In this document: positions 993 through 10,100 of the stretch, piece after piece | How positions within the stretch are numbered: the stretch's first letter is position 1 | Layout: each line of letters starts with the position of its first letter | Source of the DNA: Parietichytrium sp. I65-24A | Taxonomy: Eukaryota > Sar > Bigyra > Thraustochytrida > Thraustochytriidae | DNA length: 64,000 bases | Assembly (NCBI GenBank): GCA_012862575.1 | Contig: BLSF01000078.1 | Location: 103,750 to 167,749 of the forward strand | Reading direction: 5' to 3' | The notes under the pieces: generated by a model | Seen by the model: only the letters and a program-made list of their open reading frames with translations | What the model was told of the DNA's origin: nothing | Databases searched by the model: none | Position numbers and translations under genes: made by a program

Positions 993-3900
993 TCAACTCT
1001 GTTGCGGATGTTTGCATTGCGGGAGTGACAGGTGTTTCTCGGAGTGAAAGATGCCAAAGCATTCCTTGCACAGAACCTGCTTACATATGTGGCAGTACTT
1101 CGTGGAGCGTCTTGGCTCGCGAGTGTGAGGGCGGCGCTCTCCTGAACCAGGACTGGAAAACCTTTCGCAAGTTTTGCAGCAAAGGATGCAACGCAACTGG
1201 CCTTGTTTGCCATTCGTCATATCCGACGGTATTTTCACCCGGAGGTGAGTTCCCTTTGATGTGTCGAAGCGGAGCGTGTCAAGGTATGGGCCAAATGTTT
1301 CTGCGACTTTTCTCCGCTTTGCGCTCGGTGGAGTTGGCAACAAGGGCGGAGTTTCGATTTGTTCGACGTCTTCGGCGGCTCCCCAGGACGCCGAATGATT
1401 TTGGTCCACTTTTTGAGAGACTCCTGGAATGGCACGAGCTAACTTTTCCGGGGTAAGTGTGACCATTAACTCGTGTAAGAAATCGTCGTAGGTGAGGGAA
1501 TTTCGCCTGGCAGCAACAAATTGGCTGTACGTACCAAAGCTATCAAGTTCGCCACGAAGAAGAGCGAGTTGTGTGAGTCGAAATGCATTGAACAGGATGT
1601 AGTCCAGGAAGGTCATCCACATTAACGATCCTGGATTGAGGTCTTTGTAGATAGCCTGGCAGCTACTCACTACTTTCCTGACAAGATCGCAGCCGCCCAT
1701 GAACTTGTTCCACATGCTAGTCATAACTGGAAGGAGTCTGACACACGTTGGCGGCGTGCCGTTTCTCACAACATCCGAGGAGTGCGCATGCCAGAGATGG
1801 AGGTGCTGCTCAGCCGTGTGATGTTCGACAGCAAAACCATATGCAGGGGAGCCGTCCGGTCCAAGCCTTGGGAATGCGCCAGGTCCCACATCATTGTACG
1901 CAAATGAGAGCCATCGATCGCACAGCAATTGTAGGAAACGGATCCAGTCCCTTCGCTGCTCTCTTGAGACATGGACCAAAATACCCTGAACAAGCTGAGA
2001 CGTTGTTGCATAGATCAGGAGCGTCGAATCCAAGTTGAGCACAGCAGCGCGGTGAACAACTTGAACGCGATAGCTTGGGTTCGGCACCCACTCCTTGAAC
2101 TGCTCGGACCCAGCCTCGCACTGTCTCCAGCTCCCTTCATCTGCTGCCTTTTGATTGAGGGCAAGAATTGTTTCTGCCGTTGTAGAGGTTTTGATATCCA
2201 ACGCAATCAAACCAGCAAACTGTTGCTCCGAGCTCAAGACCGCCACCCCATCTGGTGAGTCAGCAGCGTAAGGCACATCACGACGAGCGGCCAGCCCATA
2301 CTCTTTAATGGAAGCGACGTTGTAGAACCCCTGCGTCTCCTCTCGTACGAACTTGCTCAAGCCCTTTACTATAGCTTGCTCATTCGCGGACCCCTTATGA
2401 AGAGGATTTTTTGATTCGTTTGCGTTTCTTCCGAAAGGAGACATGAACCAACGCTGAAACATAACCTGTAAAAAAGCCTTCTGACGGTCAGTGTTGGTGT
2501 AGCTATCTTGCAGATCCTCATCGTCGCTGTACAAGGCCCCCTCTGCAGGAGCAGACGATGCTGCGGCTTGTTCGTAAAAAGCAGCGATCGCGGCGCCTAA
2601 GACAGGCTTGGTGGCCCCAGGCGAAACATCGATGGCATTGTTTGCGACAATTTGCAGGAGCTCGCTCTTCGATTTTCGAGACCAGTAAACCGCTGTCTTC
2701 TGCGCGAGGTGGTTTTGGTGTAAGCCCGTGGCTGTAGTCGCCGCGTCCGGCTCCAGCGGCGGAAGTGTCTGGGTGTCGAAACCGATGCTTTTCTGAGGAG
2801 AAAGTTTCGCAATCAGCTTCACGGACGCATGCATTCCCTGGAGCTCAGCTGTATCTATGAATACGCTTGAAATGCAGTTCATCGACGCAAACGTGTTTGT
2901 ACTCGAACTGCGAAAGAGTCGCGCTAGGAACCAGCATTGGCTGCGCTGTGTCGCCGAGAGCTTGTACAACTTGCTCTCCATGTACTCCAAAGCATTTTCA
3001 CTTCGCTTCTTGAACCCAGCAGAAGTTAAGACAATGGGAGGCTCGCGCACGTGTGGCATTCGCGCAACATTCCCAGGGCTTCCAGCTTGCTTCCCAGAGG
3101 TTGTCTCGTACACCCAGCGATTTTTGGTCAGGTTCATGTTCGTGGTGATCAGACGAGCGACCCTGGCTTTCCCTTGGCCGTGCCTCATCATTTGCGCAGC
3201 GATTCTCTCATGTCGTTTCACTGCAAGAAAATTCGAACGCTGACCTTTCAATGGTACAACAACCCGCTTGCCCTTCACTCGGTCCTCCACCTTCTCGTCG
3301 CGGCCAATGAATGGAAACGAAGTGGTTTCCTTTGCTGTTCCGAGAATCGAAACTCCAAGCGACTGCAGGATCTGGACAACATTCGCTTGCCGTAAAGGGT
3401 CTTGCTGCTTTGCCAGTTGCAGGTAGCCGCGATCAATGAACAGCATCAGGGCAGACGTTGCAGACGGCTGCAGCGAATCTCTTGATTGCACGCCATACAG
3501 CGTTACAACCGCATTCTCAATCATTTGCCCGACTTTCATGCGCAGGTCCTCTAGCCAGCCCTGCAAAATAAGGCCGCTTCCAACACTAACCATGAGATGT
3601 ACCACTGGCTTTTTCTTCTTGGTTCTAGTTGGAATTCGCCGTATACCGTAGCTTTCAAATTTTCTCGAACCTTTTGCAATTTTGTCATCATCAAGGTCAC
3701 ACCAGGTTGTACCGCTGACAAAAAACTTTTGCACCCAATGTCGACGACACTCCGCCATCATGTTGAACAGAACCGGGTCTAGACTGTGTGGTGGATTTGA
3801 GACTCCGTCACGATTTTTTTGTTGACTACTAAAAGGTACGTCAGCGAACTTGAGTTGGTGCCGAACCTCATTATGGGCCATCAAGTCAAGAGGTTCAATA

Positions 3901-4466
3901 AAATTATATGAATATCTGTGCTTTGCAAATGCCGCAGCGGACTTTGATAAATATCGCAGCCCAATTTCCACTTTGAGGTACCTCACAATCGTGCCGAAAT
4001 CCAGCAGTGCCGCGTCCTTCTTGGAATCCACCAATCCGCGACGCAGCCAAGCTGCGAAGGACACCAAATACCCTTCAGGCATACACGCCGCGAAAGCTCC
4101 GAATATTGTGTCCTTCAGCTCCCCCCACCTGTCCGCGCGAACTCTGTCACAAATTTCTCGGGCTTCCGCCTTTACTTTGCCCAAAAGAATTTCATCGCAA
4201 TAATTATAGCTCAGAATAGTAGGTGTCATCTTGTAACCACTCAAGGTCCCATGGAACTCGCCGCCTTCGTGGCTCAATTCGCAAAATGCCCAGTCCGTCG
4301 GGTCTCCGAGGAGATTGTTGTCTGATTGGCAGCGTTCCAAGTCCTCCCCAGTCTCCACTCGGTCCTCATCGTCTGTCGAGTCACTTTCGCTGTCGTCTGA
4401 AACATCGGCCACGTCGCTCTCCTCGCCGCGCTCCTCATCTTGACGCAGTTCTCCGTCCTCGTTCAT
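993..4466 (-). CDS. piggyBac-type transposase with inserted SAP-like and YqaJ-like nuclease modules
   Basis: Single uninterrupted ORF of 1157 codons starting at an ATG. An acidic N-terminus (1-50) is followed by a DDE_Tnp_1_7-like core: an Asp-rich motif WCDLDDDK (255-262, candidate first Asp), IDRGY (D345, second Asp) followed by LGTAKET (375-381), and MGGCD (D927, third Asp, equivalent to the GGVD motif of piggyBac). The C-terminus has a cross-brace Cys/His finger (C1093, C1096, C1125, C1128, C1133, C1136, H1141) like the piggyBac cysteine-rich domain that binds element ends. Between the second and third Asp lie about 300 extra residues: a SAP-like helix-loop-helix (about 597-632) and a RecB/YqaJ-type nuclease with E696, SPDG (D739), D757-x-K759 and Q802. 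The family cuts and pastes DNA at TTAA. The role of the nuclease is unknown. The ORF is intact, so the copy may be active or domesticated. I could not find element ends. Confidence 0.85.
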   Translation of the reverse strand: MNEDGELRQDEERGEESDVADVSDDSESDSTDDEDRVETGEDLERCQSDNNLLGDPTDWAFCELSHEGGEFHGTLSGYKMTPTILSYNYCDEILLGKVKAEAREICDRVRADRWGELKDTIFGAFAACMPEGYLVSFAAWLRRGLVDSKKDAALLDFGTIVRYLKVEIGLRYLSKSAAAFAKHRYSYNFIEPLDLMAHNEVRHQLKFADVPFSSQQKNRDGVSNPPHSLDPVLFNMMAECRRHWVQKFFVSGTTWCDLDDDKIAKGSRKFESYGIRRIPTRTKKKKPVVHLMVSVGSGLILQGWLEDLRMKVGQMIENAVVTLYGVQSRDSLQPSATSALMLFIDRGYLQLAKQQDPLRQANVVQILQSLGVSILGTAKETTSFPFIGRDEKVEDRVKGKRVVVPLKGQRSNFLAVKRHERIAAQMMRHGQGKARVARLITTNMNLTKNRWVYETTSGKQAGSPGNVARMPHVREPPIVLTSAGFKKRSENALEYMESKLYKLSATQRSQCWFLARLFRSSSTNTFASMNCISSVFIDTAELQGMHASVKLIAKLSPQKSIGFDTQTLPPLEPDAATTATGLHQNHLAQKTAVYWSRKSKSELLQIVANNAIDVSPGATKPVLGAAIAAFYEQAAASSAPAEGALYSDDEDLQDSYTNTDRQKAFLQVMFQRWFMSPFGRNANESKNPLHKGSANEQAIVKGLSKFVREETQGFYNVASIKEYGLAARRDVPYAADSPDGVAVLSSEQQFAGLIALDIKTSTTAETILALNQKAADEGSWRQCEAGSEQFKEWVPNPSYRVQVVHRAAVLNLDSTLLIYATTSQLVQGILVHVSREQRRDWIRFLQLLCDRWLSFAYNDVGPGAFPRLGPDGSPAYGFAVEHHTAEQHLHLWHAHSSDVVRNGTPPTCVRLLPVMTSMWNKFMGGCDLVRKVVSSCQAIYKDLNPGSLMWMTFLDYILFNAFRLTQLALLRGELDSFGTYSQFVAARRNSLTYDDFLHELMVTLTPEKLARAIPGVSQKVDQNHSASWGAAEDVEQIETPPLLPTPPSAKRRKVAETFGPYLDTLRFDTSKGTHLRVKIPSDMTNGKQGQLRCILCCKTCERFSSPGSGERRPHTREPRRSTKYCHICKQVLCKECFGIFHSEKHLSLPQCKHPQQS

Positions 4467-5020
4467 GCTGCAAGCCTAGTCTGTGTCTTCGCTGCGCGCA
4501 CACAACGGGGAGGGCATTCAAAGACTTCAAAAATTTGTGCATTTTGACAATTTTGAGCCGAGCTTCCTCACGGTGCAACTCAATTGAGAAACTTCCGAAA
4601 CGGGCTCCATCATGATGATGATCACTATAAAAAATCAACGCATGAACCTCATGGCGAACTTATTGGCATATAAATCTACCAAAGTAATTTATCCGCCAGA
4701 ATAAAAAGCCGTCATTTCATTATCGGTAGAAAATATCTACCGATAACTGAATTTTGAATTTTTTGATTTTTTGATTTTTTTCCACTCTTGAGTCTCTTGA
4801 GTTTTGAGACTGGTCGTGAGTGACACAGAGAAGCGCGGGACTAGACGCGCGATACGCGGACGGGTAGAAGCCAGGCAGCGGGAGGAGGAAGGAGAATTCG
4901 CCGCGCGCGCACCCCCACTACCCCTCGTCCCTCCGTCCCAGCGTGCCCACACTTGTGGTTGCCAAAGGCCGCGGGATCCCGTCCCATCCATCCACCCATC
5001 CACCCAGTGAAGCATCAGAG
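4467..5020. other. Divergent intergenic region between the transposase and ARS2-like genes
   Basis: About 550 bp separating two divergently oriented starts (4466 minus, 5021 plus), so it should hold both promoters. A TATA-like string sits near 4669. A perfect 11-bp inverted repeat with a 5-nt loop lies at 4720-4746 and is listed separately. The part next to 5021 is GC-rich with CCAT repeats. No other gene is evident. Confidence 0.6.
4720..4746. repeat. Perfect 11-bp inverted repeat (hairpin/palindrome)
   Basis: TTATCGGTAGA at 4720-4730 is mirrored exactly by TCTACCGATAA at 4736-4746 around a 5-nt AT spacer. It lies in the divergent intergenic region 254 bp upstream of the transposase ATG. 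It could be a protein-binding palindrome, a subterminal repeat of the transposon or a remnant of a small element; the sequence does not decide. Confidence 0.7.
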
Positions 5021-6870: not shown

Positions 6871-7122
6871 TTCCACAGTAACTATAACAATAACAATGAT
6901 TTGCTTCAAGTTTCTGTTTCTGTTTTGATTGTGTTCACAATGGAAAAAAGTCTTATCGGAGCTGACTTTCTGCAAGGGTAGAATCCAAGAAGAGGATGTA
7001 CGGAGAACGTGTGAGCCTGGAGAGACCGATCTGCATGCGGGGGGTGGGGGCCGTTGTGTGTGAGCGCAAATTCGTCTCGCAACACACGTTGGTTATAACT
7101 CATTCGTTCTTTCTTTGACCAC

Positions 7123-10100
7123 TCATGGAATTTCCGCGTTCTTGCGCGGCATGTTGTCCAGAGTTTCGAATATGTACTGAAGACCAGGGCGAGTCGATGC
7201 TCCAACAATCCTCTGCCAGACATAGCCCGACCTGTGCAAAAACTCTTCGTGGCCGAACAAAATCAAATGATTTCGCGCTCGCGAGAGTAAAACGTTTAGC
7301 CGCCTGGGGCAACTCATAAATGTTCGTTTGTTGCGCTGGTCGTCGCTATACTCCGTTCGGCAACAGCTCACGATGACGATGTTGCTTTCTCCGCCCTGGA
7401 ACGCATCGGTTGTTGCCACGCGGACAGGGCAGTCCTGTACCGCAATTCCGGAGTTTGCAACGAGCCGGGTCTGGATGGCGACCACCTGCGCTCGGTACAA
7501 GCACACAATTGAGATGTCGACAGTGTCAACGCCCGCGCGAACAAGCTTTTCGACGAGTGAACAAATCAGAGCTGACTCTACTTCGTTGCAATACGACTCC
7601 CCTTTTCGAAGCTCGCGGCCATGGCCGACATCAAAATACACGATTGGGCTCAATTCGGGTACAAACGGCTCGCGTTCTGCGTCGGAAATGCCATTTATAA
7701 CCCTACCGTTGTAGAAGAGCTCAGAACACATGGACGAAATGGTTGGGTGGCAGCGGTATTGTGTGTGGAGCAAGATCGGCGTGTAGATTCCCCATCTACA
7801 AAGCCTTTCAAATAAGCTTGTGCCAAACCAGACCTCCGTTGCATTCTGCACAAGACCACTGTTTGTGGGCGCATCGCTCACAGTGACTGGGGGAAGTTGC
7901 AGCGGATCGCCGACCAAAACTAAGAACTCGCAGTTTGTATTGAATATTGGTAGCAGCGAGAGCGCCTCCACTGCCTGGCAGGCCTCGTCCAAAAACAAAA
8001 TCGTTCGCTTGCCTTCAAACAGCTTAGAAGCAAAGTCTTTTGCAGCGCTGCTGCAGCACGTCAATCCAACGATGCGAGCCTGTTCGAGCTGGGCTTTTCT
8101 CCCGCGCGCTTTGTAATTATCTCCTCTTGAGCCACCTCCCGTCGACAATGAACCAGCGCTATGCAACACGTAGCTCTGCAATTCGCGATCGATTTTCCTG
8201 TCGCTTCCGACTCTTGCGAGATCCGTAATACCGTTTTTCAAAAGCGTTTTGAGCATGTTGTCTACGGCGGTATTGGTAGCAGCGCTCAGACAGATTCGCA
8301 CATCATTGTTGGCGTCACCCAGCAGCTGGCAGCAGAGCGCAATACACGCGCAGATCAACTTTGTTTTCCCGCACCCGTAGGGGCCGTGCACGATGCTGAC
8401 CTTCTCCGAGCTCTGGCTCAGGAACCAATCCGACGTCTTGCGAAGGGCTCTAGCCTGGGCATCGTTCAATGCAAAACGTCGCACTACCTCTACATAAGCC
8501 CTTTCGACGGTTTCTGGCTCACTCAAGTCTCCGCATCGCTCGACGGGGAGCGCAGGCCTGCTCAAATCCGGCTCTTTACACGCGCGGGCCAAAAGATACG
8601 GGAAGATCGGTGGTCTGGCGATCTGCCCGTCACGCAACTGACAAGCGAGCTGAAGCATCATAAATTCGTTCTCGATGCTCTGGCCTCGTTGAGCGCATAC
8701 CTTGGTTTGCGATGACCAAGTTCCTGACACGAAACTTGGACTAAAATTGGTTGACAATGGTTCCACTGAGCGTTTGTGCGCAGCTTTTCAGTTAGCGAAG
8801 CTTTTGACAAGAAGACAGACAGACAGACAGACCTACAAACTCAAACCATTTCTAGCTTGGTAACTCCACTTACCTTGCAAATTACCATCCGGCGTTGCGG
8901 ACTGCCAAACTGATCGAAAGATCCAAACTTGCTCTGACAAAGAGTCGCTTGTTTTAGCTGTTTTGTTTTTTCCCTGCCAAAATGGCTGTCTGGAGACAAA
9001 CCACAAATCCCCTAGCGAGCATGTTTTCCGCAAGTAGTCCTGCTTGCTCAGCGCGGTAGATGACATGAAGTAGCGAGTCGTCGCAGTTTCTGAGCTCTTG
9101 CGCGGTGAAGAGCATTCGTCTGAGTCACTATGGTTCGAGTCATCTCCGTCACTTTCCGACCCTCTTCTTCGTTTACGGTACTTTTGCTTTTTATGGGCTT
9201 GGAAAGGTTTCCTCGACTTTGACTTTCCGGGGATCTTTTTATACATTGTACAAGCGGCGTCTGCCATCGAAGGTGCGCCAAGCCTCATCGTCAGGTTTGC
9301 GTACGATATGGATTCCAACTCACCTTGCACCGACCTGACGAGGAAGGCTGCATACTTCTCTTCAGCTTCCTTCGGCGAATAGTTTTCCAGCGAGGTTAGT
9401 CTTGCAGTGTTGACCCCCTTCTTATCGCGCGCTGGAAACTGTATCAGATAATCCGTCGACTTTACGCTCGAAGGCTCTCGAAAAGAGGTGAGAGCTGAAC
9501 CATTTCGCGGAGGCTGTGAGGGCAAAGGCTTGCTTTCATCTGATTGATTGAATGCTTGAGCTGGCGGTCGAAAGGGCTTCCGCAGCCCAGTGGCTCGCCT
9601 CTCACTGTCCTTAAGCCCATCGCAATTCTCCTTTCCCACACAAAGCTGATTCGCCCTTGATTGAGGAGCACTGACTTTCAAAGGGACTAGTACAGGTTTA
9701 CTCTTGATAGACGGTATGGAAATCTCGCTTTCGAGATTCGCTCCTTCCAGGGCAAACATCTCTAGAAGATCACAGCCGGCCTGGTCAGCTATTTTGACGA
9801 TGGAACCAACTGTTGTAGATTCTCGCTCTTTGCCATCATGAGTCTGAGAAGGGGGTGTTTGAACTTTGGGGGCGGGATCAAACATATCTAGTAAGTCGTC
9901 TGTGGACAGTGGTTCGCTTGATCGTGTACTTTGCGACATGCCGGGCTTTGTGTCTAAGCTTCCATCCAATCTCTGCCTTTTCCCAGTCTTTTGGACGATA
10001 ACTGCAGAGACTTCTCTTCGGCTTACTGGAGGAGGAAGAGCGCACGCGCTCCTCGTTGCCAAACGGTTAGAAATAGGCTGAATCGACTGCTTTACCACCA

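Follow-up and report, generated by a model that had tools for sequence, protein, structure and literature searches.

A nuclease inside a transposase core

Does the long open reading frame (ORF) at 993..4466 of the minus strand of this stretch encode a piggyBac transposase that carries a second nuclease within its own catalytic core, and what would such an enzyme do? The stretch, 64,000 nucleotides of contig BLSF01000078.1 of the thraustochytrid Parietichytrium sp. I65-24A, is referred to here in its whole length as the window. A sequence-only reading had proposed a core split by a YqaJ-like nuclease and a SAP-like module. The ORF begins with ATG, ends with a stop codon and is intact over 1157 codons, and the transposase motifs and the nuclease lie in the same frame of the same gene, as had been claimed. 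As a single query, the 1157-residue protein had no match in Pfam, NCBIfam or PDB, and in PHROG it matched only a RecE-like exonuclease (E 0.036); since the protein alone matches almost nothing in the libraries, the case for its architecture rests on its family. At the level of sequence, the family comparisons confirmed the ORF as a predicted piggyBac-type transposase, the DDD core (three catalytic aspartates) of which is split by a nuclease of the lambda-exonuclease/YqaJ type.

The eukaryote-like host genome (42.5 Mb, 172 contigs) was queried with the window protein and then with three paralogs and one outside relative (P0006). This gave 14 near-full-length copies, window copy included, of 992 to 1266 residues as cut. 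At least five relatives were found outside the host genome: P0002 (JGI source), P0003, P0004 (from the thraustochytrid Hondaea fermentalgiana), P0005 and P0006; this number is a lower bound, as scoring was limited to the best 7990 candidates by shared words in two of the three protein searches. Further copies with the same architecture, anticipated in the sequence-only reading, thus exist, and the 14 genomic and five outside proteins form the 19 members in which conservation was counted below. Because the order of parts recurs in all of them, both a mistaken reading frame and a misassembly that joined two genes can be ruled out. Identity to the window copy is 15-20% for all members but P0002 (41% in the 19-member comparison; 37% over 97% in the protein search).

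Eleven members from the host genome were combined into a profile; against PDB sequences it matched piggyBac (6x67, E 1.6e-13) and piggyBat (9c0f, E 6.9e-10), with every other row above 0.1. The match to 6x67 consists of three collinear pieces: profile positions 135-371 on piggyBac residues 139-373, with D268 and D346; positions 856-910 on 433-486, with D447; and the C-terminal finger. By the family profile and the member alignment, the first part of the ribonuclease H (RNase H)-like core of the window protein spans residues 250-379 (3330..3719, minus strand, as are all parts of the window protein given below), with D259 and D345 (DRGY), and the second part spans residues 880-1010 (1437..1829), with the third aspartate, D927 (WNKFMGGCD). 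All residues named earlier are present (D257, D259-261, D345, E696, SPDG with D739, D757-x-K759, Q802, D927 and the C-terminal Cys/His finger). The first catalytic aspartate, formerly placed within D257-261, can be narrowed to D259, because D257 occurs in just two of the 19 members and is not a family residue; D259 is kept in 16/19, D345 in 15/19 and D927 in 15/19, and both L012 and L027 have lost the stretches around D259/D345. The cysteine-rich finger of piggyBac type (residues 1070-1142, 1041..1259), to which the piggyBat finger aligned in the profile comparison, keeps its Cys/His columns in all but one or two of the 19 members, and zf-Tnp_2 matched one paralog below the cut-off (E 0.012). 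Pfam DDE_Tnp_1 was matched over the cut-off in P0005 (3.6e-5) and P0006 (1.3e-5), and sub-threshold DDE_Tnp_1_7 matches fell ahead of the insert in P0005 (0.0033) and past it in P0006 (0.064). An ordinary piggyBac without the insert, on contig C1 of the same genome, matched DDE_Tnp_1_7 in one piece over its full length.

The insertion domain of piggyBac, residues 372-433, interrupts the RNase H fold after its fifth strand, which is also where other DDE/D transposases that have such a domain carry it (PMC7351741). It is this position that the family insert occupies, replacing or extending piggyBac residues 374-432, and the distance from the second to the third aspartate ranges from 474 to 671 residues in the family.

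The nested nuclease

The profile of the insert matched phage YqaJ exonucleases in hhalign at 97% (E 3e-11), with controls below 1%, whereas the nuclease segment of the window copy alone matched phrog_434 at 0.0012 and had no Pfam match. Structure modelling covered the window sequence with P0002 and with P0002-P0006. For the nuclease core, a candidate PD-(D/E)XK fold, lambda-type exonucleases ranked first in the predicted structure, with modest Z scores (7.8 and below), and the proteins at the top of Foldseek's own ranking were for the most part unrelated. The core spans residues 655-850 (1917..2504) and carries E696, SPDG with D739, D757-x-K759 and Q802 in the window copy. K759, S737 and R800 are kept in all 19 members, D739 and Q802 in 18, E696 in 17 (its stretch is lost in L013) and an acidic residue at position 757 in 16. 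A chance match of motifs is ruled out by this conservation across the family and by the hhalign result with its controls.

A nuclease at residues 665-830, as proposed earlier, has its catalytic residues complete, but the span was drawn too short. Upstream of a variable spacer lies a QRxxxWFxxR...T motif (residues 505-525, 2892..2954), which aligns to the start of LHK-Exo; in the alignment of the phage set, W512 and R516 correspond to W24 and R28 of lambda exonuclease, i.e. to its 5ʹ-phosphate pocket, so that the predicted nuclease would extend over about residues 505-850. In lambda exonuclease, which is specific for 5ʹ-phosphorylated substrates, W24 and R28 bind the 5ʹ phosphate and are required for activity, and the active site includes E85, D119 and K131 (PMC7496540). 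W512 is invariant in the 19 members and R516 is kept in 16, with Lys in the other three. This pocket motif points to a 5ʹ-to-3ʹ exonuclease acting on open ends, and it is these two residues that speak for a putative activity on 5ʹ-phosphorylated duplex, as by the toroidal trimer of lambda exonuclease.

The spacer spans residues 526-654 (2505..2891) and contains the SAP-like stretch (residues ~594-634, 2565-2687). A segment of this kind was seen in four members, and scans of these four, window copy included, gave no SAP match; a single one of them, not the window copy, matched Rho_N there (E 0.0005). The SAP-like module of the sequence-only reading was therefore not confirmed.

Beyond these parts, the residues ahead of the first aspartate (117-258, 3693..4118) match the dimerisation and DNA-binding region of piggyBac, the alignment to 6x67 starting at profile position 135 and chain residue 139. 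A conserved segment past the second aspartate (residues 380-485, 3012..3329, from the member alignment) may, judging by its position, be left over from the native insertion domain. A pattern scan revealed an N-terminal Cys-Cys-His-Cys zinc-knuckle-like motif ahead of the transposase part in eight of the 19 members (L010, L012, L013, L014, L015, L019, P0003 and P0006), window copy excluded. The same eukaryotic genome also has a standalone YqaJ/lambda-exonuclease gene of 316 residues (L024:3620-4570, G000 C42; Pfam E 9e-24), with matches in 272 phage records.

Conservation and joint inheritance of the two active sites

Both active sites are complete in nine of the 19 members, among them the window copy. 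The nuclease alone is complete in four (L017, L018, L025, L026), the DDD triad alone in two (L011, L013), and neither in four (L012, L016, L027 and P0004 from Hondaea). In all eight pairs with at least 40% identity, the nuclease was better conserved than the first half of the transposase, and in the three pairs that allowed an estimate, the ratio of nonsynonymous to synonymous substitution rates (dN/dS) of the nuclease was 0.11, 0.11 and 0.12. By these values, the nuclease of related copies is under purifying selection. None of the pairs includes the window copy; there, the reading frame and the two active sites, all of them intact, suggest that selection acted until recent times.

Trees of the transposase part and of the nuclease part, built with 18 members (L012 was dropped for its deletion), had 14 of 15 splits in common, several of them with low support, and no conflict with support of 90 or more; the transposase tree was not rejected by the nuclease data (approximately unbiased test, p 0.187). 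Since nearly all splits are shared, a single gain of the nuclease, with inheritance alongside the transposase ever since, is probable and accounts for the data most simply; separate recent captures are not favoured.

An additional copy, L009 on contig C3, is split over two overlapping ORFs and was left out of the trees. L028 (G000 C3:754710-756170) has an intact ORF of 554 residues, in which an in-frame loss between the first and the third aspartate has removed the second aspartate and the whole nuclease; the DNA-binding parts remain, as does the finger, and a role as a repressor is conceivable. At the locus L029 (G000 C98), the 3ʹ end of one member is present as a 1-kb direct duplication (3758-4758 and 8298-9308, 98% identical), which adjoins a satellite-like array that repeats about every 64 bases. 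A scan of viral contigs gave 109 pattern matches, among which no relative was confirmed.

Transposon ends and the state of the window copy

TTAA-flanked terminal repeats, which would be expected of a piggyBac element, were not found. A TTAA-anchored search with cross-locus controls gave no TTAA-bounded terminal inverted repeats at 15 loci within ~1.5 kb: the best own-pair match was 9 of 14 bases (mean 5.3), as against a mean of 5.7 and a maximum of 14 in the controls, and on the 5ʹ side of the window copy there is no TTAA within ~1.5 kb. A search for terminal inverted repeats with 8-base seeds was also negative at 13 loci. Two candidate ends were rejected. The long inverted repeat of L013 consists of two flanking homologous, inverted transporter-like genes (L013:627-2240 and 7077-8000, 45% identical), and the ~160-base repeat beside three copies (L025:6560-6722, L027:6597-6760, L019:617-725) is a dispersed genomic repeat with at least 41 matches (40 of 92 candidates scored).

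With its flanks, the window element had two other DNA matches in the genome: one, at 66%, is a decayed copy on C63, and the other covers 40 bases on C34. Because no TTAA-bounded repeats were found at the 15 loci and DNA matches elsewhere are limited to these two, the window copy would be old, immobile or domesticated; it is an intact gene with no detectable transposon ends and may no longer be mobile. Eight other ORFs of the window were scanned, with matches that include a V-ATPase 116-kDa subunit, an ion channel, an XPG/FEN-type nuclease and an SF1-type helicase.

What the nested enzyme may do

Coupling of transposition to end resection, suggested in the sequence-only reading, fits the predicted anatomy of the protein. 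We lean, by a small margin over doubt, towards a resecting transposase: a piggyBac-derived family with a nuclease inserted between the second and the third aspartate, in which the DDD site cuts and the nested enzyme resects the breaks made by its own protein. This reading starts from the observed architecture, the homology of both parts and the conservation of both active sites, and adds resection as the step that we infer. The DDD core would cut and join transposon ends in piggyBac fashion, and the nested enzyme, gripping 5ʹ-phosphorylated ends via W512/R516, would digest 5ʹ to 3ʹ from these breaks, chiefly into the donor flanks, as an exonuclease tethered in the synaptic complex. Excision sites of piggyBac are repaired with no footprints (PMC7351741); resected flanks would block such seamless rejoining, the donor would be repaired by recombination with the sister copy, and the element would be restored at the donor site, raising its copy number. 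More tentatively, and with the balance of expectation on the other side, two nested metal nucleases acting in sequence (the DDD site cutting, the lambda-type site, loaded in cis, resecting) may be a general route to copy-number gain via recombinational donor repair, to which end at least three DDE superfamilies (ISL2EU, Kolobok and the present piggyBac lineage) would each have taken up a lambda-type nuclease independently.

The alternative that survives best, doubtful as we hold it to be, is that these are host-domesticated genes that no longer move DNA, some copies being mainly transposase-derived DNA-binding scaffolds for the exonuclease, e.g. in repair or in defence against foreign DNA. That no TTAA-bounded ends were found at the 15 loci would agree with this, as would the identity of 16-20% between the window copy and the other 13 copies of the host genome. 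The stronger conservation of the nuclease in the eight pairs, and the four members with a complete nuclease and a partly lost triad, compared to two with the reverse, point the same way. However, four versus two are too few to weigh, nine members keep both sites, and the many paralogs, together with decayed family fragments on C63, C60, C19, C31, C34 and further contigs, resemble an ageing transposon family.

It is also conceivable, although we consider it unlikely, that the nuclease opens or trims the hairpin ends of the transposon itself, or sets the structure of these ends before joining, and does not resect donor flanks. piggyBac passes through hairpin ends (PMC7351741), and topologically the nuclease sits where Dada has its DEDDy exonuclease, an enzyme that, according to the authors of the Dada study, likely processes cleaved 3ʹ ends (PMC3706591). 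However, lambda exonuclease loads on open, 5ʹ-phosphorylated ends (PMC7496540), which a hairpin does not have, and the residues of the 5ʹ-phosphate pocket are conserved in the family. That the exonuclease fold is kept idle, serving structure or DNA binding like the insertion domains of other DDE transposases, is very improbable. At least one of the five scored nuclease residues is lost in six of 19 members, and the insertion domain of piggyBac itself touches DNA, with no description as a nuclease in the excerpted source (PMC7351741); but all five residues are kept in 13/19, and the 45 best-conserved columns of the entire protein include E696, D739, K759, Q802 and W512.

Comparison with known systems

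Herpesviruses encode a lambda-type alkaline exonuclease. Teratorn, a piggyBac-herpesvirus fusion (PMC5601938), belongs to the piggyBac superfamily like the present family, but it is a 180-kb, largely herpesvirus-derived element, and the excerpt of its description does not mention a nuclease nested in the transposase. Literature on piggyBac or YqaJ with transposons, among the matches listed and with Repbase outside its scope, named no piggyBac-YqaJ protein and no lambda-type exonuclease nested in a piggyBac core; two eukaryote-genome papers, in the parts available, name YqaJ and piggyBac just as entries in lists of repeat-type domains or within a reference (PMC7826175, PMC13289751).

The remark in the sequence-only reading that insertion domains of DDE transposases are not normally nucleases needs a caveat, as exonucleases in or beside such transposases have been published for Dada, KolobokD, KolobokE and ISL2EU, which we compared by their published descriptions. 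Dada (PMC3706591) has an exonuclease domain between the second catalytic aspartate and the DxxH motif of its DDE transposase; however, it belongs to another superfamily, and its nuclease is DnaQ-like DEDDy, of 3ʹ-5ʹ polarity. KolobokD has a DEDDh exonuclease and KolobokE a lambda-exonuclease-like PD-D/ExK nuclease (PMC9587614); both belong to the Kolobok superfamily, and the nuclease of KolobokE follows the transposase domain instead of lying within it. ISL2EU (PMC4482050, PMC9179366) combines a YqaJ exonuclease with a DDE transposase, but YqaJ is in a second ORF and the transposase is Harbinger-like. What is already known is therefore the presence of exonucleases inside or beside DDE transposases, whereas a predicted lambda-type exonuclease nested in a piggyBac core was not met in the literature searched. 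The present family also suggests repeated recruitment of lambda-type nucleases by unrelated transposases. According to the authors of the PHIS survey, it was still unknown what the additional ORFs, among them that for YqaJ, do (PMC4482050).

With lambda exonuclease, YqaJ and LHK-Exo the family shares the motif order W...R, G..(N)E, SPDG, (D/E)xK, Q, the profile match and the ranking of the core fold, and it differs from them in that the nuclease is embedded in a transposase and, in the clade of the window copy, in the long spacer between the 5ʹ-phosphate motif and the core. With piggyBac (6x67) and piggyBat (9c0f) it shares the DDD triad in the same motif contexts, the same insertion point in the RNase H fold and the C-terminal finger; it differs from piggyBac, in which 100 residues separate D346 from D447, by its much longer interval, by the nested nuclease and by having no TTAA-bounded repeats found. 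The exonuclease here sits in the core of a well-studied, seamless type of transposase, and because it is built into such a core, its role is directly testable by single-residue removals at either site; the family may represent a natural cut-and-resect enzyme.
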